Below are positions 41,364 to 50,985 of a stretch of 64,000 nt of DNA, in pieces. The translations under genes were made by a program, and so were the position numbers. Numbering within the stretch: the stretch's first letter is position 1; each line of letters begins with the position of its first letter. The notes under the pieces were generated by a model that was not told where the DNA came from, made no database searches, and saw only the letters and a list, made by a program, of their open reading frames with translations. This stretch comes from Terriglobia bacterium (GTDB lineage Bacteria > Acidobacteriota > Terriglobia > Terriglobales > Acidobacteriaceae): positions 62,001-126,000 of the forward strand of contig JAIQGE010000011.1 of the NCBI GenBank assembly GCA_020072815.1, given 5' to 3'.

Positions 41364-42518
41364 TCAAACCGCATGATAGGCGAAGCGCCGGTCCAGCCGG
41401 GCGGCAAAGGCGCGCTCCACCAGTTTGCCCATCTCACTGGTGCTGACCAAATGCTGCTGGCGCTGTTCCGATAGTCCTGGCGCGGATTCCTGCGGTGGGG
41501 CTTGTTGCGGCACAACCAGATCGGCGGTGCGATGTCCCGCTTGCAGCACGTGGCCAATGGCTTCTTCCAGGTCGGCGGCTTCCTGGGCCATGCCGGCGGA
41601 GTGGCGCAGCAACATGGCTGCGGAAGCAATCGCGCCCAGCGGGTTGGCGATGCCTTTTCCGGCGATGTCCGGCGCCGAGCCGTGCACCGGCTCGTATAAG
41701 TTGACTTCGCCGCCGATGGTCGCCGACCCCAGCATGCCCAGCGAACCGGTGATGGCCGCGGCTTCGTCGGAAAGAATGTCGCCAAAAAGATTTTCAGTCA
41801 AAATCACGTCAAAACGAGTCGGCGTGGTGATCAGGTGCATGGCGCAGGCGTCCACGTACATGTGGTCCAGCTGGACGTCAGGATAGTCGCGGGCCACGCC
41901 GATGACGGTGCGCCGCCACAGCTGCGAAGTTTCCAGCACGTTGGCTTTGTCCACGGACGTAACTTTCTTGCGCCGCGTGCGCGACTGCTCAAACGCCACG
42001 CGGGCCACGCGCTCAATTTCTTCCACGGAATAGCGCATGGTGTTGTGCGCCGAGTTGCCGTCAGCCGCAAAGCCGCGGGGATGGGCAAAATAAATTCCGC
42101 CCAGCAGTTCGCGGACAATGAGCACGTCCGCGCCCTTCACCCGCGAGGCGCGTAGCGGCGAGCAGTCGGCAATGGCCGGATAAGAAACCGCGGGACGCAG
42201 GTTGGCGAATCCGCCCAGCGCAGTGCGCAGGCGCAGCAGCCCGGCTTCAGGACGCTGCTCGCTGGAAAGATGATCAAACTCCGGCGTGCCCACGGCGCCC
42301 AGGAAGACAGCGTCGCTCAGCAGGCAGGATTGCAGAGTGGCGTCGGGCAAGGGCGTCTGGTGGGCGCGAATGGCCGCGCCGCCGACGGGCTTTTCGTCGA
42401 ACTGAAAGTCGCAATCGTAATAGTGAGTCAGCGTCTTCAGCGCGCGCACTGCTTCACGGCAAACTTCCGGGCCAACACCGTCGCCCGGAAGCATTGTGAT
42501 CTTGATCTTGATACGCAT
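41364..42518 (-). CDS. leuB: 3-isopropylmalate dehydrogenase
   Basis: [20 protein letters not shown] near the start, [27 protein letters not shown] and [24 protein letters not shown] identify the NAD-dependent dehydrogenase of leucine synthesis. At 384 residues it is about 25 longer than usual; the extra sits near the C-terminus as a Gln/Pro/Ser-rich stretch. It follows leuA by 28 bases. Confidence 0.96.
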
Positions 42519-42546
42519 GGCCCTGTAATACCTGATTCTCGGAAGA

Positions 42547-43734
42547 TTAGTTGGCCGCTGGTTGAAGAACTGAGGCCGGCCGTGGCGCCGCCGGCAGCAA
42601 GGAAATCAAGTCCTGGTCATAGATGTTCTTTTTGCTCTCCGCCAGCTTCATGAAGCGCATGTACACCGAATCCAGATCATGCTGCGCCACGGGGTGGCCC
42701 AACTCAGCCAGGCGCTTGCCCAGCGCGTGCCGCCCGGAGTGCTTGCCCAGGACCAGGTTGTTGCCGGGAACGCCCACGGACTCCGGCGTCATGATCTCAT
42801 AACACAGCGGATTGCTGATCACGCCGTGCTGGTGAATGCCGGCTTCATGGGCGAAGGCATTGCGCCCGACGATGGCCTTGTTGGGCTGCGGCTCAAAGCC
42901 GATCAGTTCGGCCAACAGCCGGCTGGTGGAGTAGATCTCGCGCGTGTTGATGCCGGTCTCATACGGCAACTGCTCCTGGCGGACGTTCAACGCCATGACA
43001 ATTTCTTCCAGCGACGCGTTGCCCGCGCGCTCGCCGATCCCGTTGATGGTGCATTCCACCTGGCGGGCGCCGGCCTGGATGGCGGCCAGCGTGTTCGCGA
43101 CAGCGAGGCCGAGGTCATTGTGGCAATGCGCGGAGATAGTTACTCTCTGGATTCCGTGTACGGTTTCGCGGATGGTTTCAATGAGGCGTCCGAATTCCTG
43201 CGGCAGCGTGTAACCTACCGTGTCCGGAATGTTGATTACGGTGGCGCCGGCGTCCACCGCGGCCTGCACGAAGCGGCAGAGGAAGTCCACGTCGGAGCGC
43301 GAAGCGTCTTCAGGAGAGAACTCCACGTCATCGCACAGCGACCGCGCGTAAGCCACTGCTTTGTAAACCTGATCGAGCGCCTGCTCGCGGGTGATCCGCA
43401 ACTTGCATTGCAAATGCAGATCAGAGCTGGCCAGGAATACGTGAATGCGCGGGCGGCGGGCGTGCTCCAGCGCGGCCCAGGCGCGGCGGATGTCCGGCTC
43501 CGCGGCGCGGGCCAGCCCGGCGATGATCGGCTGGCGAAGCTGCGAGGAGATCATGCGGACCGCGTGAAAATCGTCGTCAGAGGCGATGGGAAAGCCGGCT
43601 TCAATCACGTCCACGCCCAGCCCTTCCAGCTGGCACGCCATGCGCAGCTTTTCCCGGATGCCCATGCTGCAACCCGGCGCCTGCTCACCATCGCGCAACG
43701 TGGTGTCAAAGATCGAGATACGAGACCGCTGCAT
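42547..43734 (-). CDS. leuA: 2-isopropylmalate synthase, short form
   Basis: [16 protein letters not shown] is the metal-binding signature. [13 protein letters not shown] and [24 protein letters not shown] form the catalytic barrel, and [11 protein letters not shown] is the second conserved block. The enzyme condenses acetyl-CoA with 2-ketoisovalerate. At 395 residues it lacks the C-terminal LeuA dimer domain of about 120 residues that binds leucine. Its product may therefore escape feedback inhibition, unless it is a homocitrate- or methylthioalkylmalate-like variant. It is the first gene of the leu operon, divergent from a LysR gene. Confidence 0.9.
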
Positions 43735-43810
43735 AGCAAAGCCCTCCCCTGGTTGGAACTAGCCATGGTCAAGCCCCGGTCTACAATAAGTCAAATTTAT
43801 ATTTGTTGCA

Positions 43811-43839
43811 CTTAGCATAAGAAATGCTTATGTTATAAG
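43811..43839. promoter_or_regulatory. Candidate LysR operator in the leuA-lysR intergenic region
   Basis: CATAAG-AAATG-CTTATG (43816-43832) and the overlapping CTTAT-GTT-ATAAG (43827-43839) are perfect inverted repeats sharing one arm. They lie in the 158-bp space between the divergent leuA and LysR genes, the usual place for LysR-type binding sites. Confidence 0.6.
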
Positions 43840-43892
43840 CCGCGCCTTGGGGACACGAAAGCTGGCCGGCGCCAATATCAGGGAACACAATC

Positions 43893-44810
43893 ATGGATTT
43901 CTTTCAACTGGAAACGTTTCTTGCGGTAGCGCAGACGGGCAGCTTCTCCGGCGCGGCCAAAGTGGTCCACCGCACCCAGCCCGCAGTGAGCCAGGTGGTG
44001 CGCAAGTTGGAAGAGGAGATCGGCGAAGCGCTGTTTGACCGGTCTTTGGGGGGCGGCACGGTCACCGACGCTGGCCGCGTGCTGCAGGAGTACGCGCAGA
44101 AAATGCTCAACCTGCGGCGCGAAGCGCGGGCGTCACTGGAAGAGCTGCGCCAGTTTCAGCGCGGCATGCTGACCATCGCCGCCAACGAATTTACGTCACT
44201 ATACCTGCTGCGCGTGCTGGAGGAATACCGGCGGTTTTGTCCCATGATCAAAGTTGCGGTGCAGCGGTCACTGGCAAGCTCCATCGCCGCGCAAGTGGCC
44301 GACCACACGGTGGAACTGGGCGTGCTTTCGTTTCGTCCCGACGACGGCAACCTGCAATCGGTGGTGGTGTTCCGCGACGAACTGGTCTTCGTGGTGCCGC
44401 CCAAACATCCGTTGGCCAAGGCCAGGAGCGTGAGCATACGGCAGTTGGGAGCGGAGTCGTTCGTGGCGCACGCCGTGGTGTCGCCCTACCGGTTGAAGGT
44501 GCTGGAGGCGTTCGCGCGCCACAAAACCCCGCTCAACATGGACGTGGAAATGCCAACGCTCGAAGCCATCAAGCGCTTTGTGGCCGCGGGCAACGGCGTG
44601 GCCTTGGTGCCGCGAATCGCGGTGGAACCGGAGCTGGCGCGCGGTGACCTGATCGCTGTTCCGGTGAAGGAACTGAAGCTGGAGCGCAAACTGCGGATCA
44701 TCTATCGCAAAGGCGGACAACTCTCGCACGCCGCGCGGGCGTTCTTGCAGGTGGCGGAATCGGTGAGCACGAATGCCGGAGGGAGTTATTTGTTTCAGCA
44801 GGAAAAATGA
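43893..44810 (+). CDS. LysR-family transcriptional regulator
   Basis: The N-terminal winged helix reads MDFFQLETFLAVAQTGSFSGAAKVVHRTQPAVSQVVRKLEEEIGEALFDR, a textbook LysR DNA-binding domain. A periplasmic-binding-like sensor domain fills the remaining 210 residues (LTIAANEFTSLYLLRVLEEYRRF, ELGVLSFRPDD). It is divergent from the leu operon across inverted repeats, so control of leucine synthesis with a pathway intermediate as co-inducer is likely, but not proven. Confidence 0.93.
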   Translation: MDFFQLETFLAVAQTGSFSGAAKVVHRTQPAVSQVVRKLEEEIGEALFDRSLGGGTVTDAGRVLQEYAQKMLNLRREARASLEELRQFQRGMLTIAANEFTSLYLLRVLEEYRRFCPMIKVAVQRSLASSIAAQVADHTVELGVLSFRPDDGNLQSVVVFRDELVFVVPPKHPLAKARSVSIRQLGAESFVAHAVVSPYRLKVLEAFARHKTPLNMDVEMPTLEAIKRFVAAGNGVALVPRIAVEPELARGDLIAVPVKELKLERKLRIIYRKGGQLSHAARAFLQVAESVSTNAGGSYLFQQEK

Positions 44811-44829
44811 AAAGCAGCGGTTGGTCTTT

Positions 44830-44964
44830 TCTGAAATCCCGAGCGAAGCGAGGGATACCTATCGATTCCAGTGCTCCCGAGGGCCTGCCTTTGTGTTCCT
44901 GAAACGATATTGAGTTCATAGGGATCCCTCGGCCGATTCCCTTCGGCGGCCTCGGGATTTCAGA
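44830..44964. repeat. Nested inverted-repeat element (MITE-like)
   Basis: TCTGAAATCCCGAG (44830-44843) and CTCGGGATTTCAGA (44951-44964) are perfect inverted copies. Just inside, CGAGGGATACCTAT and ATAGGGATCCCTCG match at 13 of 14. The 135-bp unit has no gene, starts 20 bases after the LysR stop and ends 16 bases before the transposon's target duplication. It could be a small non-autonomous element or a terminator. Confidence 0.65.
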
Positions 44965-45025
44965 AGACTGCTAATTGCCATTTGCTAACGGAAGTATGTA
45001 CTTAACGCAAGGGTGAAAATACCAG

Positions 45026-45048
45026 ATCGTTTGCGTCATGCAAACGAT
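45026..45048. promoter_or_regulatory. Perfect 9-bp inverted repeat, candidate operator
   Basis: ATCGTTTGC-GTCAT-GCAAACGAT lies immediately upstream of TTGCTT (45050-45055), an 18-base spacer and TACAAT (45074-45079), which form the promoter of the winged-helix gene. Self-control by that protein is possible. Confidence 0.6.
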
Positions 45049-45089
45049 GTTGCTTGCAAATCCTCAATTCAGGTACAATTGTCGGCAGC

Positions 45090-45464
45090 ATGGCAAAAGA
45101 AGCCGAAATAACGCAGGCCGACATCCCGCGACTAAAGGCAGCGATCAAGCGCGACCTGGAAGCTGCACAAAATAACCTGGAAGCGATACAGCGCGAGTGG
45201 GAAGCACTTACGCTCATTGAGGCTCGGTTGCGGAGGTTGAGCGCACCTGAGTCGAAATATAATCGGCTGCGGGACTTAACTCTAGAAATTCTTCGGAAAG
45301 CGGGATGTCCCTTAAGTCCGGCAGAAATCGTGGAACGTGCGAAGCAACACGGATGGACGTTTAAATCTGACCGGAATGGATGGAGCAGTGTAAACAGTGT
45401 GCTCTCGCGCAGGAAAGGAAAAGATGTACGCAAGCTGCCTGACGGCACGTGGACTATCAAGTAG
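45090..45464 (+). CDS. Transposon-borne winged-helix (HARE-HTH-like) protein (124 aa)
   Basis: Residues 1-55 form a charged coiled coil (LKAAIKRDLEAAQNNLEAIQREWEALTLIEARLRRL). The second half looks like a HARE-type winged helix: LTLEILRKAGCPLSPAEIVERAKQHGW, SSVNSVLSRRKGKDVRKLPDGTWTIK. ATG 45090 lies 10 nt after TACAAT, so the message is nearly leaderless; the frame opens earlier at 45054 without support. It may regulate the transposon or its tRNA. It is transcribed toward the tRNA and transposase. Confidence 0.7.
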   Translation: MAKEAEITQADIPRLKAAIKRDLEAAQNNLEAIQREWEALTLIEARLRRLSAPESKYNRLRDLTLEILRKAGCPLSPAEIVERAKQHGWTFKSDRNGWSSVNSVLSRRKGKDVRKLPDGTWTIK

Positions 45465-45493
45465 TGGACTATGGCCCTGAGGCCATTAATAGT

Positions 45494-45582
45494 GCGGGTG
45501 TGGCGAAATTGGTAAACGCAGTAGCCTTGGAAGCTACTGGCGAGAAATCGCCATGAGGGTTCGAGGCCCTCCACCCGCACCA
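45494..45582 (+). tRNA. tRNA with leucine-type body and UGG anticodon
   Basis: Acceptor stem GCGGGTG pairs with CACCCGC, with A73 and encoded CCA. The D-arm is GCG-AAATTGGTAAA-CGC, the T-arm GAGGG-TTCGAGG-CCCTC, and a long variable arm GGCGA-GAAA-TCGCC makes it class II, as in tRNA-Leu. The anticodon stem GTAGC-GCTAC encloses CTTGGAA, so bases 34-36 are TGG (45528-45530), which reads proline CCN codons. Base pair G1-C72 is unlike bacterial tRNA-Pro (C1-G72). It lies inside the transposon. It could be charged with leucine and read proline codons; that is inference. Confidence 0.88.
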
Positions 45583-45599
45583 CAATTCTAAGCGTAGGG

Positions 45600-45630
45600 C
45601 ATTCGTGTACGAATGTCAAGGGTAATTTTT
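45600..45630 (+). terminator. Possible terminator after the tRNA
   Basis: CATTCG-TGTA-CGAATG is a 6-bp hairpin (45600-45615) followed within 10 bases by a T-run (TAATTTTTT). It would end the tRNA transcript before the transposase promoter. Confidence 0.5.
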
Positions 45631-45633
45631 TAC

Positions 45634-45661
45634 TTGACACAAGGCTTGCGCTAAGTATAAA
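45634..45661 (+). promoter_or_regulatory. Transposase promoter
   Basis: TTGACA (45634-45639), a 16-base spacer and TATAAA (45656-45661). The transposase ATG lies 9 nt further on, so the message may lack a 5' untranslated region. Confidence 0.72.
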
Positions 45662-45670
45662 ATTAGTCCC

Positions 45671-46624
45671 ATGAAAGACAAAAAGCACAGCCTCACAAGC
45701 TCCCCGATAATCAAAGAGATACCAGCAGCTTGCAGCAACGAGCTTGCAGCCGTGGAATTTCTTGAGCAGCAACGTTGGGGAAATTCGCCGTGCTGCATTC
45801 GCTGTGGGAGTGTGAACGTGTACAAGATGGTGGATGCCAAGACAAACGAACGCAACAATCGTTTCTTGTGGCGTTGCCATGACTGCAAAGAGCAGTACAC
45901 AGTCCGCATCGGGACAGTTTATGAGGAATCCCGAATTCCCCTTCGCCACTGGTGCTATGCGTTTTGGAGAGCCGCCACATCCAAAAAGGGTGTCTCTGCT
46001 CTGGAAATCAAACGGCAATGCCAGATCAGTTACAAGTCTGCCCTGTTCCTTATGAATCGAATCCGCTTCGCGATGGCCCCAGACGCCAACGCGCCTAAAC
46101 TGACCGGCATTGTCGAATGCGACGAAACTTATATCGGCCCCCGTCGGCCCCGTCACAAAGGAACCAGCAGACGCGGACGCGGCACCAGCAAGACTCCGGT
46201 TTTCGTGGCCGTGGAACGGGATGGACAGCTTCGCCGTCGCGTCATCGCAGACGTGACGATGGCAACGATAGGAAACGCAATTCGTGAGGAAGTTGACAGG
46301 CGCGCCCACTTGATGACGGACGAATTTACGGCTTATACCCGCGTCGGCCCAGAGTACGCGAAGCACAGCACTGTGTGTCATTCCACCAAGGAATATGCGC
46401 GGGGAGACGTTCACACGAACACGGCAGAAAGCAGCCATGCTCTTGTGAAACGCGGAATTGTGGGCATTTACCATAATGTCAGCCGCGAATATCTGCATCG
46501 TTATCTTTGGCAGTACGATTTCCTTTGGAACAATCGAAAGTTGAACGATGGAGAGCGCACCGTTCTTGCAATTCAGTCAGCAGAAGGCAAACGCCTCATG
46601 TATGCTGAACCAGCAAAGGCATAG
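45671..46624 (+). CDS. IS1595-family transposase
   Basis: The 317-residue protein has an N-terminal zinc ribbon (CCIRCGSVNVY, CHDCKEQYT), then the DDE-type catalytic domain: ECDETYIG, the TDEFTAY segment and NTAESSHALVKRGIVG, which supplies the last acidic/Asn position. A His-rich C-terminal helix (YHNVSREYLHRYLWQYDFLWNNR) is typical. It moves the element by cut-and-paste with 8-bp target duplication, as seen. It looks intact. Confidence 0.95.
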   Translation: MKDKKHSLTSSPIIKEIPAACSNELAAVEFLEQQRWGNSPCCIRCGSVNVYKMVDAKTNERNNRFLWRCHDCKEQYTVRIGTVYEESRIPLRHWCYAFWRAATSKKGVSALEIKRQCQISYKSALFLMNRIRFAMAPDANAPKLTGIVECDETYIGPRRPRHKGTSRRGRGTSKTPVFVAVERDGQLRRRVIADVTMATIGNAIREEVDRRAHLMTDEFTAYTRVGPEYAKHSTVCHSTKEYARGDVHTNTAESSHALVKRGIVGIYHNVSREYLHRYLWQYDFLWNNRKLNDGERTVLAIQSAEGKRLMYAEPAKA

Positions 46625-46630
46625 TCTCCC

Positions 46631-46783
46631 ATGCCCAAAACAGCCAAGCGCAAAAAGCCCAAGAAACAACGGGCCACTCCCGGCCCCAAGCCAGACACGC
46701 TCAAAATTGAGGGCGACTGGCGAGATGCGGTAAAGCAATCCCTGACGAAAAAGAAGCCGCCCGAAGGTTGGCCAAAAGGATGA
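46631..46783 (+). CDS. Small basic passenger protein of the transposon (50 aa)
   Basis: The protein begins MPKTAKRKKPKKQRATPGPKP and ends KKKPPEGWPKG. It lies 6 bases after the transposase and 4 before the next gene. Such small basic proteins often accompany IS1595-type transposases in environmental genomes, from general recollection. The Lys/Arg-rich start suggests nucleic acid binding. Confidence 0.7.
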   Translation: MPKTAKRKKPKKQRATPGPKPDTLKIEGDWRDAVKQSLTKKKPPEGWPKG

Positions 46784-46787
46784 ATAC

Positions 46788-47189
46788 ATGACTGAGCAAC
46801 GACGGAGATTGCGGTGTTTTGGCTGCTCGCAGCCGATTGAGCTTCCACATCAAAGCCCACAACAAAAGGCAACCGACGCATGGCCGATAACAATCGTCTG
46901 CCGTAACTGTGGGCGGCTGGCATCTTATTCGATACAGGACATCCTCTATGAAGAAATCCCTATTCCCGCCCAAAGCCTCCAAATCGATGTTCTATGGTGC
47001 GTAACGTTTCAATGTGCTTATCAAAACTGTTCTGCACCAAAGCGGAACGTATATACGAACTGTGGACAATCTCAGATAGATGACGCACCGAATTTTGTCC
47101 TAGGTTCAATAGAAGCTGTCTGCTGCGACAAAGGCCACCCATTCAAGATTGGCAATTTGGATTCCGTTCATCACGTCACCAACATTTGA
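46788..47189 (+). CDS. Transposon passenger zinc-ribbon protein (133 aa)
   Basis: Cys pairs LRCFGCSQP, VCRNCGRL, FQCAYQNCSAPK and AVCCDKGH suggest two zinc-binding sites. No family is recognised. It is the last gene before the right end of the element and shares the transposase transcript. Confidence 0.65.
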   Translation: MTEQRRRLRCFGCSQPIELPHQSPQQKATDAWPITIVCRNCGRLASYSIQDILYEEIPIPAQSLQIDVLWCVTFQCAYQNCSAPKRNVYTNCGQSQIDDAPNFVLGSIEAVCCDKGHPFKIGNLDSVHHVTNI

Positions 47190-47266
47190 GCGCGGTTGGG
47201 AGCCGCGATATCCCGCCGCGTCCCGCGATTGCGTAAAATACATACTTCCGTTTGCTAATTGCTTCT

Positions 47267-48439
47267 TCAGTACTTCGGCACCTTCGGGTCTACCCTGTCC
47301 GCCCAGGCCAGGATTCCACCCGCCAGGTTCTTCGCTTTGGTGAAACCGGCCTGGCGCAAAAAAGCCACGGCGCGCGCGCTGCGGACGCCGGAACGGCAAT
47401 GGACCACCATCTCCTTGGCCGGATCTAGTTCGCTGACGCGCTTGGACAGATCGTTGAGCGGGATGAGGTGGCCGTTGAGGTTGCAGATCTGGTATTCGTG
47501 GGCCTCGCGCACGTCCAGGATGAAGATGTCGTCCTTGGCGTCAAGCCGCTGCTTCAGTTCTTCCACACTGATTTCAGGTATGCCGGTCTGGTTCACAGGT
47601 GTCTCCTGTCCGCGCAATCCGCAGAATTCTTCGTAATCAATAAGTTTAGTGACGGTGGGGTGGTCGCCGCAAACCACACAGTCAGGATTTTTGCGCAGCT
47701 TGAGTTCGCGGAACTTCATGCCGAGGGCGTCCACCAGCAGCAGGCGTCCGATCAGCGGCTGCCCGCTGCCCAGAATGAGTTTGATGACTTCCGTGGCCTG
47801 GATCAAGCCGACCAGTCCGGGCAAAATGCCGAGCACTCCGCCTTCCGCGCAGGAAGGGACCAGCCCGGGCGGAGGCGGCTCGGGATAAAGGCAGCGGTAG
47901 CAGGGCCCGTCTTTGGCGGCGAACACGCTGGCCTGGCCCTCAAAGCGGAAAATGGAGCCGTACACGTTGGGCTTGCCGGTGAAGACGCAAGCGTCATTGA
48001 CCAGGAAGCGCGTGGGGAAGTTGTCCGTGCCGTCCACAATGATGTCAAAGCCGGCGAAGATCTCCAGCGCGTTGTCGCTGGTGAGCTTGGCGTTAAACGT
48101 CTGCACGTTGACGAAAGGATTGATGGCCGCAATCTTTTCCCGCGCTGACTCCAGCTTGGGACGCCCCACGTCACTGGTGAAGTGGATCACCTGGCGCTGC
48201 AGGTTGGTGAAATCCACGACGTCGAAGTCCACCAGCCCCAGCGTGCCCACGCCGGCGGCGGAAAGATACAGAGCCAGCGGCGAGCCCAGCCCTCCGGTGC
48301 CGATGCAGAGCACGCGCGCAGCCTTGAGCTTTTGCTGGCCCTCCATGCCCACTTCCGGCATGATCAGGTGCCGGGAGTAACGCAGGACCTCCTGGTTGTT
48401 CAATGCGGGAAGGGATTCAGGCGCCAAAGTGGTGGCCAT
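47267..48439 (-). CDS. moeB: MoeB/ThiF-type adenylyltransferase with rhodanese domain
   Basis: Residues about 1-250 form the E1-like domain: EVLRYSRHLIMPEVGMEGQQKLKAARVLCIGTGGLGSPLALYLSAAGVG, DNFPTRFLVNDAC and zinc cysteines CYRCLYP and CVVCGDHP. Residues about 285-385 are a rhodanese with the active Cys in VVHCRSGVRSARAV. It adenylates the Gly-Gly tail of a MoaD/ThiS-like protein and can pass on persulfide sulfur. The likely partner is the sulfur carrier at 32280. Its short Cys-containing leader and a hairpin over its ribosome binding site lie upstream. The transposon inserted just after its stop. Confidence 0.92.
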   Translation of the reverse strand: MATTLAPESLPALNNQEVLRYSRHLIMPEVGMEGQQKLKAARVLCIGTGGLGSPLALYLSAAGVGTLGLVDFDVVDFTNLQRQVIHFTSDVGRPKLESAREKIAAINPFVNVQTFNAKLTSDNALEIFAGFDIIVDGTDNFPTRFLVNDACVFTGKPNVYGSIFRFEGQASVFAAKDGPCYRCLYPEPPPPGLVPSCAEGGVLGILPGLVGLIQATEVIKLILGSGQPLIGRLLLVDALGMKFRELKLRKNPDCVVCGDHPTVTKLIDYEEFCGLRGQETPVNQTGIPEISVEELKQRLDAKDDIFILDVREAHEYQICNLNGHLIPLNDLSKRVSELDPAKEMVVHCRSGVRSARAVAFLRQAGFTKAKNLAGGILAWADRVDPKVPKY

Positions 48440-49557: not shown

Positions 49558-49851
49558 AGGATGCAATTTCCGACGCTTTTTGCCCAATCACTTGCTTGCC
49601 GAAGTTTGCCTGAAAGCGCGTCCCAATGGGAGAATAAGCCTGTGCTTTTGAGCGGCTGGGAGGCTCGGTTTATTTAGTGTCCTGACCCGGCCCAAGGGCA
49701 TCAAAGTAATAGTAAGACTGCGGGCTTCAACAACCCCGCAGATCGGGCGCCTGAGTGCAAAACGGCGCAGTGGATCTGCTGGAGCCTGCGGATGCTTTCA
49801 ACATCCCCGTTCCGGGGCGTCAAGCTCCTGGGACTGAAGGCGGAAAAGAAA
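49558..49851. other. Intergenic region before nadA
   Basis: Almost 300 bases without a supported gene separate the permease remnant from nadA. No terminator or leader is evident. Confidence 0.45.
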
Positions 49852-50985
49852 ATGACGACCTTTGTTGCTCCATTGTCCGAGCGGGCGGAAATCTGTTCCC
49901 TCGACAACTATCTCGTACTCCCCGACCAAAGCATGGACGCGCGCATCGCTGCGGCCAAGGCCGCGCTGGGCGAGCGCGTGGTTGTTCTCGGTCACCACTA
50001 CCAGCGCGATGAAGTGATCCGCTTTGCCGATTTTCGCGGCGACTCCTACAAGCTCTCCCAGGAGGCTGCGCGCACCCAGGCAGAATACGTTGTCTTCTGC
50101 GGCGTGCACTTTATGGCGGAAAGCGCGGACGTGCTCGGCCACGGCGGCCAGCAGGTGATTCTGCCGGACATGAATGCCGGGTGTTCCATGGCCGACATGG
50201 CGGAGATTGGCCAGGTAGAAGCCGCCTGGAAACAGCTGGTCAAACAGGGCCTCACCGACGAACTGGGCCACGGCATTACGCCGCTTACGTACATGAACTC
50301 CACGGCGGCGATCAAGGCATTTTGCGGCGAGCGCGGCGGGCTGGTGTGCACGTCGTCGAATGCCGGTGCGGCGTTCCAGTGGGCGTTTGCCCGCAACGAG
50401 AAGATCTTCTTCCTGCCTGACCAGCATCTGGGCCGCAACACCGCCTACGCCATGGGAATCCCCCTGGAAGATTGCGTGGTGTGGGACCCGTTCAAAGTCC
50501 TGGGCGGGCTTACGCCGCAGCAACTGCGCGCGGCGAAAGTAATTCTGTGGAAGGGCCATTGCTCCGTCCACCAGCGCTTTTTGCCCGAACACGTGGACAA
50601 GGTCCGCGCAAAGCATCCCGACATCAAGGTCATCGTGCATCCGGAGTGCCGCTGGGAAGTTTGCCAAAAGGCTGACGGCGTGGGCTCCACCGAGGGGCTG
50701 ATCAAGATGATCAAAGAGTCCCCGGCGGGCAGCAAGTTTGCCGTGGGCACGGAGATCCATCTGGTCAACCGCGCGAGCAAAGAGTTTGCCAAGGACAACA
50801 AGATGGTCATCACCTTGGATGATTCCGGTTGCCTGTGCACGACAATGTTCCGAATTTCACCGCAGCATCTGTGCTGGTCGCTGGAGAACCTGGTGGACGG
50901 CCAGGTGGTGAACCGCATACAAGTGGCCGACGACGTGAAGCACTGGGCGCGGGTAGCGCTGGATAGGATGCTGGAAGTGAAGTAA
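49852..50985 (+). CDS. nadA: Quinolinate synthase
   Basis: VVVLGHHYQRDEVIRFADFRGDSYKLSQEAA, VVFCGVHFMAESADVL, VILPDMNAGCSMADMAE and the later Cys residues (HPECRWEVC) are the family marks; the three conserved cysteines hold a 4Fe-4S cluster. It condenses iminoaspartate with DHAP in NAD synthesis. The start ATG 49852 (MTTFVAPLSERAE) is chosen over the longer frame from 49792. No nadB or nadC is adjacent. Confidence 0.94.
   Translation: MTTFVAPLSERAEICSLDNYLVLPDQSMDARIAAAKAALGERVVVLGHHYQRDEVIRFADFRGDSYKLSQEAARTQAEYVVFCGVHFMAESADVLGHGGQQVILPDMNAGCSMADMAEIGQVEAAWKQLVKQGLTDELGHGITPLTYMNSTAAIKAFCGERGGLVCTSSNAGAAFQWAFARNEKIFFLPDQHLGRNTAYAMGIPLEDCVVWDPFKVLGGLTPQQLRAAKVILWKGHCSVHQRFLPEHVDKVRAKHPDIKVIVHPECRWEVCQKADGVGSTEGLIKMIKESPAGSKFAVGTEIHLVNRASKEFAKDNKMVITLDDSGCLCTTMFRISPQHLCWSLENLVDGQVVNRIQVADDVKHWARVALDRMLEVK

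Follow-up and report, generated by a model that had tools for sequence, protein, structure and literature searches.

The DNA analysed here, a stretch of 64,000 nucleotides from a Terriglobia bacterium (the window), harbors an IS1595-family transposon whose cargo is a tRNA. This tRNA is genuine and intact, has a long variable arm and a leucine-type body, and carries the proline anticodon UGG. In the transposases of elements that carry such a tRNA, the proline codons at four alignment columns are nearly always CCA. On balance we think that the host would charge this tRNA with leucine and that the tRNA would read CCA in the transposase of its own element, as leucine or as a mixture of leucine and proline.

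The hybrid tRNA and its host genome

ARAGORN predicts a tRNA of 89 nt with the anticodon TGG (Table 1), and the Rfam model RF00005 matches the same positions with 59.8 bits (gathering threshold 29) without marking a single non-standard pair. The acceptor stem has 7 bp (GCGGGTG/CACCCGC, with G1–C72), the D-arm is the leucine D-arm GCGAAATTGGTAAACGC, the anticodon loop of 7 bases (CTTGGAA) sits on a 5-bp stem, the variable arm of 17 nt forms a stem of its own, and the 3′ end has A73 followed by an encoded CCA. Leucine tRNAs are identified by A73, the leucine D-arm and the long variable arm, and all three are present here. A first-pass annotation made from the letters alone had named these features, the G1–C72 pair and the UGG anticodon within this loop. 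They are all found in the predicted structure, and the stems pair in the exact read.

The isotype was judged by global alignment to the tRNAs of the same genome. The leucine tRNAs score 23–35.5 (identity 62–71%), the normal serine tRNAs 5.5–15.5 (57–61%), the proline tRNAs 9–14 (57–62%) and the odd serine-like tRNAs at most 19; the identity ranges of leucine and the other isotypes meet at the low end, whereas the scores stay separate. This agrees with the earlier claim of a leucine body with a proline anticodon. The nearest relative in the genome is tRNA-Leu(UAG) with 71% identity.

The host genome (5.29 Mb, 100% complete, 49 tRNA matches) contains no second copy of the hybrid tRNA. As its normal proline tRNAs (UGG, CGG, GGG) and leucine tRNAs (UAA, UAG, CAA, CAG, GAG) are all in place, the hybrid tRNA is surplus. 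No close copy was found in eight genomes of the same genus, two of them less than 90% complete, and in 40 relative genomes the four matches are all ordinary leucine tRNAs (GAG or UAG). The same genome has further unusual tRNAs. At C1:473429–473635 (L043) a tandem pair of odd serine-like tRNAs (GCT and CGA) exists beyond the normal serine set, and no transposase is evident by eye among the listed open reading frames. At C1:109974–110057 (L048) a degenerate tRNA-Ser(UGA) has the 3′ end of the genome's tRNA-Leu(CAG) and looks like a recombinant remnant.

The transposon

The element spans positions 44989–47250 of the window (2.26 kb) and encloses the tRNA and the transposase (Table 1). The first-pass annotation had spoken of an element without giving its identity; it is the IS1595-family transposon described here. 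The encoded transposase has an ISXO2-like DDE transposase domain and a zinc ribbon (PF12762, PF12760), and the 34-nt arms of the terminal inverted repeats are 85% complementary. IS1595-family elements duplicate 8 bp of their target, which is the length of the duplicated TTTGCTAA. In a genome of the same genus (G002, locus L302) the two flanking genes are adjacent and the insertion site contains TTTGCTAA once; in the six other genomes in which the thiF-like gene was found, no lysR-like gene was seen next to it, so that they are uninformative on the empty site. As repeats and duplication enclose the element and an empty site exists in G002, the tRNA came in within the transposon.

Table 1. Features of the transposon and its borders in the window
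Feature	Position	Strand	Basis or remark
Left target-site duplication TTTGCTAA	44981..44988	.	identical 8 bp flank the element; one copy in empty site L302
Left terminal inverted repeat CGGAAGTATGTACTTAACGCAA	44989..45010	+	repeat search
Small ORF	45090..45464	+	starts with ATG, frame open from TTG 45054; like a winged helix (HARE-HTH) in its C-terminal part
Leucine-type tRNA, anticodon UGG	45494..45582	+	ARAGORN and Rfam; anticodon 45528–45530, CCA 45580–45582
Sigma-70-like promoter match TTGACA-18-TAAAAT	45634..45663	+	ahead of transposase; consensus match only
IS1595-family transposase, 317 aa	45671..46624	+	PF12762 E=5.4e-35, PF12760 E=4.4e-10
CCA codon, aa 18	45722..45724	+	CCA-only column; within predicted helix
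CCA codon, aa 137	46079..46081	+	CCA-only column
CCA codon, aa 227	46349..46351	+	outside the four CCA-only columns
CCA codon, aa 314	46610..46612	+	CCA-only column
Cysteine-rich ORF, 133 aa	46788..47189	+	within element; no Pfam match
Right terminal inverted repeat	47229..47250	-	repeat search
Right target-site duplication TTTGCTAA	47251..47258	.	copy of left 8 bp

Between the end of the tRNA and the transposase gene lie 88 bp with the promoter match, one of three such matches in the element where 2.0 are expected. The product of the small ORF upstream of the tRNA matches PF05066 with E=2.3e-4 and 21.9 bits, under the Pfam cut-off of 25.9, and its N-terminal part appears coiled-coil-like by eye. 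The transposase is 72% identical to that of locus L105, from an Acidobacteriaceae MAG. Outside the element, at 49723–49841, the window has two tandem matches to the nadA riboswitch, the second of which overlaps the start of an ORF (49792–50985); this riboswitch is linked to Acidobacteria and, together with the L105 match, makes an acidobacterial host probable.

Recurrence of leucine-type UGG tRNAs

A collection of 84,980 species was searched with a pattern combining the leucine D-arm with the anticodon NGG (T33, G35 and G36 fixed, position 34 free). It yielded 88 stretches, 33 of which were accepted as leucine-type UGG tRNAs; in this set L089 runs into the end of its contig, the variable region of L111 and L113 is short (6–7 nt), and L115 and L125 are one tRNA of a single MAG counted twice. 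The accepted loci come, many of them from MAGs, from Alpha-, Beta-, Gamma- and Deltaproteobacteria, Planctomycetes, Chloroflexi, Verrucomicrobia, Gemmatimonadales, Acidobacteria and Prevotella.

The remaining 55 stretches were rejected by eye as apparent group I intron-split tRNA-Leu genes, repeats of the 5′ half of clostridial tRNA-Leu, matches with the loop TTAGGGA, and truncated or unpaired copies. Near-misses were L082 (CGG), whose T-loop does not have TT, and L110 (GGG), whose anticodon stem failed the filter. The clostridial half-repeats (L106, L099, L091, L096 and others) share a short tail, for example GCAGCGTTACTACAGTG. The TTAGGGA loops (anticodon AGG; L055, L080, L086 and L092) follow leucine-like D-arms and go with poor acceptor pairing; three are from flavobacteria and one is from a Limnohabitans MAG.

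In total 45 distinct leucine-type UGG tRNAs were compared. Their stems vary in sequence and yet pair, so that they are not chance matches; since the parser required most stem pairs, the evidence lies in the pair types and not in the percentage paired. The recurrence also refutes the idea that the window tRNA is a tRNA-Leu(UAG) altered by a sequencing error or by decay. A single base change would turn UAG into UGG, but the best identity within the genome is only 71% and the identical anticodon is found in unrelated genomes, so that we regard this explanation as practically eliminated.

The sequence around the accepted tRNAs, examined over pieces of at most 8 kb, holds an IS1595 transposase or its remnant in 20 of 33 cases; for the rejected stretches, one of which (217 bp) is too short to search, the count is 0 of 55. 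We had considered a site-specific integrase beside the tRNA; the recurring neighbor of about 320 aa is the transposase instead. Small ORFs lie upstream of the tRNA at other loci too, and those of L066, L114, L118 and L060 are homologous. In the first three of these the pair of ORF and tRNA stands without a visible IS1595 transposase, and ORF and tRNA may travel as a unit. By eye these ORFs resemble a winged helix; that of L066 has no Pfam match.

It could be argued that the tRNA plays no part in translation and is a leftover or serves as a signal for processing or transcription. The CCA end is encoded in only 14 of the 45 copies and no IS1595 transposase is seen in 13 of the 33 accepted loci, which would fit such a role. 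Against it, position 34 is T in 33/33 accepted loci although the pattern left it free, the stems are varied but paired, and codons are placed as described below. We therefore consider this explanation very unlikely.

Element ends and other tRNA-bearing transposons

At 17 of the 39 loci examined, tRNA and transposase lie between convincing inverted repeats flanked by a duplication that matches in at least 7 of its 8 bases. Six of these loci came from a first examination, which set aside weaker pairs at other loci as chance, and 11 from a second, which set aside the L215 pair. With the thresholds of the second search a pair appeared in 5 of 300 chimeric controls; the weakest pairs kept are those of L211 (17/22) and L217 (16/22). 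A leucine-type UGG tRNA is present at 14 of the 17 loci, and the other three carry UGG on a serine-like body (L148), UAU (L176) and GGA (L217). L176, from a relative, is an IS1595 element (L176:1739–4525) whose UAU tRNA, which resembles the 8/4 allo-tRNAs, lies within perfect 22-base repeats next to a second short tRNA (UGC).

Further long-armed tRNAs near IS1595 transposases, with ends not found, have the anticodons UGC (L144, L145), UGU (L260), AGG (L215), CGC (L198) and UAU (L219). As ordinary tRNAs also adjoin IS1595 transposases, for example tRNA-Ser(GGA) in L154 and phage-like arrays in L202, nearness to a transposase alone is no proof. A second transposon in the window's own genome (L189:2655–4660 on G000:C4) has an IS1-like transposase (PF03400, 4.1e-5), inverted repeats of 17 bp that look identical, and the 8-bp duplication CGTTATCT. 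It contains a leucine-like tRNA (L189:4118–4207) with the anticodon UUA, which reads the stop codon UAA; the transposase has no in-frame TAA as a target and stops with TGA.

Placement of CCA codons in the transposases

The transposases of 24 UGG carriers were aligned with 122 others, some of which were later found to bear a tRNA; columns are numbered by the residues of the window transposase. In the carriers the proline codons are CCA in 10/10 cases at column 18, 7/7 at 137, 13/14 at 139 and 17/17 at 314. CCA is nearly absent at columns 37 (0/11), 40 (0/18), 43 (1/16), 90 (0/18), 160 (0/13) and 176 (0/15), the six other columns with at least 11 prolines in carriers, where it amounts to 1/91 in the carriers and 47/389 in the others. 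At columns 193 and 143 the carriers have 2/10 and 3/5.

The four columns were first noticed in 18 carriers, before the viral_contigs loci entered, and here 32 of the 33 proline codons are CCA. Among nine later carriers from another collection the count is 17/18; the alignment behind the final column map already included six of these nine. All loci were labelled by ARAGORN before the final CCA counts. Of the proline codons at the same columns, 9/35 are CCA in 110 transposases near which a tRNA was not found, which does not mean that it is absent, as the sequence around many of these loci extends for only some 1.5 kb or breaks off at the end of a contig. The corresponding counts are 3/8 in nine carriers of other tRNAs and 2/20 in 51 transposases added later, none with a UGG tRNA. 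Outside the four columns CCA accounts for 22/170 proline codons in the discovery carriers, 13/74 in the later carriers, 113/937 without tRNA and 14/70 in carriers of other tRNAs. As the carriers resemble the non-carriers here, the avoidance of CCA is limited to the conserved columns.

When codons were shuffled within sequences, the placement of CCA in the 24 carriers (z=23.8) was reached by 0/500 shuffles, and that in the 122 others (z=1.0) by 33/200. In the carriers CCG, which mirrors CCA, has z=7.6, and the highest value for a codon that does not encode proline is 4.8; in the non-carriers codons other than CCA rise to 6.1. Visual inspection singled out nine loci with CCA at the four columns. 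Three of them had a UGG tRNA missed by the parser, two have incomplete flanks and four have no tRNA found (L173, L216, L218, L224); rescanning the other 113 loci gave one further UGG tRNA (L228). In L166 CCA is at column 139 and no tRNA was found. The transposases are 38–72% and 45–54% identical to the first alignment row in two sets, with four carrier pairs above 70%, and in a FastTree tree, several nodes of which have low support, carriers are interleaved with non-carriers.

Could the tRNA act on the whole proteome? It would then insert leucine at proline codons generally, as a stress adaptation or a cost imposed by the element, with no dedicated circuit, and the transposase would merely keep CCA from sites where proline matters. 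The surplus tRNA beside a complete proline set and the scarcity of CCA at conserved proline columns are compatible with this, and tRNA-ProX of Streptomyces provides a precedent (PMC10365949; PMC11415595). Avoidance alone, however, cannot give 49/51 CCA at four columns when about 12% is expected from the other columns, and we consider proteome-wide mistranslation unlikely.

In 26/34 elements the private codons favour, as expected, positions at which their standard residue is less conserved (combined p=4e-6; p=0.91 for CCA in non-carriers). Tested singly, five of the 34 reach p<0.05 (L176, L085, L197, L079, L139). For L176 the placement of ATA has p=0.0004, and ATA is weakly placed in non-carriers also (combined p=0.001); isoleucine is the commonest residue in none of its five AUA columns. 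In L215, with the anticodon AGG, the only two CCT among 15 proline codons are at 139 and 314. This locus carries little weight, as its anticodon stem is poor, its ends were not found, and a different IS1595 group, which has no such tRNA, usually encodes proline at 314 by CCT as well (10/11, later set). In that group (L314, L328, L341, L345–L347, L350, L352 and others) the third base of the codon equivalent to 314 is T in nearly all cases (ACT, CCT, ATT) irrespective of the residue, possibly reflecting a constraint on the DNA. With L287 as sole query no match beyond itself was obtained.

What residue CCA stands for

Outside the UGG carriers the residue at column 314 is leucine in 32 cases, threonine in 15, proline in 13 and serine in 10. 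Two close relatives have leucine codons there, CTT in L149 and CTG in L199. Residue 18 lies within a predicted helix (mean pLDDT 81, nine sequences), an unusual place for proline. Several close relatives that lack the tRNA encode proline at column 139, by CCG, CCT or CCC. In the residue-conservation profile CCA of the carriers fits proline best (81.1 bits over 81 codons, against –39.8 for leucine), in an alignment that treated CCA as proline and is biased toward it; this fit is weaker than that of CCC or CCG. We dropped a complete reassignment of CCA to leucine, as the tRNA-free relatives have proline at 139 and the profile favours proline.

Proline tRNA synthetase recognizes G35, G36 and A73 and may accept them on a leucine-type body. 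The hybrid tRNA could then be charged with proline and serve as an extra reader of the CCA codons of its element without any recoding. Residue conservation at the CCA sites, which favours proline over leucine, and A73 in 42/45 tRNAs are in line with proline charging. On the other hand, the UGC, UGU, UAU and CGC tRNAs near IS1595 transposases share by eye the leucine- or serine-like body and not the anticodon, and CCA is scarce at conserved prolines. Charging with proline thus seems to us unlikely. Judged by the codon patterns, CCA is treated as a special codon in the UGG carriers and would most likely be read in part as leucine, at sites that tolerate or use leucine.

Proposed mechanism

Starting from the observed tRNA, element, family and codon placement, we infer the charging, the decoding and a control by the ratio of leucine to proline. 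The hybrid tRNA keeps the parts recognized by leucyl-tRNA synthetase, so that a bacterial host would charge it with leucine, and its anticodon would pair with CCA, where it would compete with the host tRNA-Pro(UGG). The transposase gene appears to have CCA at a few fixed sites and to keep it out of conserved prolines. In a cell that bears the element, the transposase would then be made in a leucine form or as a leucine/proline mixture at these sites, and the ratio might control transposition in either direction. The earlier suggestion of a mistranslating or suppressor tRNA stands as an inference in this form, but the likely target is the transposon's own transposase and not the proteome at large.

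Comparison with known systems

The IS1595 family includes members with passenger genes. The window element resembles them in its transposase domains, inverted repeats and 8-bp duplication, and differs in that the passenger is a hybrid tRNA. Among the papers listed by searches of a literature collection with few subscription papers, none, judged by its title and the beginning of its abstract, reports an insertion sequence that has a hybrid tRNA as passenger and codons to match it.

One paper (PMC7609411) describes allo-tRNAs, serine tRNAs of 8/4 and 9/3 structure from Acidobacteria and other bacteria, among them a UAU pseudogene that overlaps a transposon-related ORF, and hypothesizes a link to transposable elements. 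An anticodon-blind body with a foreign anticodon is common to both kinds. The window tRNA, in contrast, has normal 7/5 arms and a leucine body, and element ends and codon placement are described here for tRNAs of its type; the 8/4 UAU tRNA inside the IS1595 ends of L176 bridges both kinds. The tRNA-ProX of Streptomyces and Kitasatospora (PMC10365949; PMC11415595) has a proline body, an alanine, asparagine or threonine anticodon and a partner synthetase, ProRSx. It is likewise a natural hybrid capable of mistranslation, whereas the window tRNA combines a leucine body with a proline anticodon and resides on a transposon; no synthetase, ProRSx included, was detected among the nine ORFs scanned from 41364 to 48439. 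Phage suppressor tRNAs recode phage genes (PMC10879173), and there too a mobile element supplies a tRNA that fits its own codons. They act on stop codons, while the present case concerns a sense codon in an insertion sequence.

Implications

As a tentative generalization, possible rather than probable in our view, such IS1595 transposons could carry a private tRNA with an anticodon-blind leucine or serine body as the key to a lock formed by the matching codon of the transposase, whose activity would depend on the element's tRNA and on how this is balanced against the host tRNA. Other elements may, on thin evidence, match their anticodons with other private codons (AUA, GCA, ACA). If this is true, several CCA sites could let the transposase respond steeply to the copy number of the element or to proline starvation. 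The enigmatic hybrid tRNAs would gain a home and a use, an insertion sequence would be seen to take a private decoding rule from one phylum to another, and there would be a directly testable example of a mobile element that recodes a sense codon.
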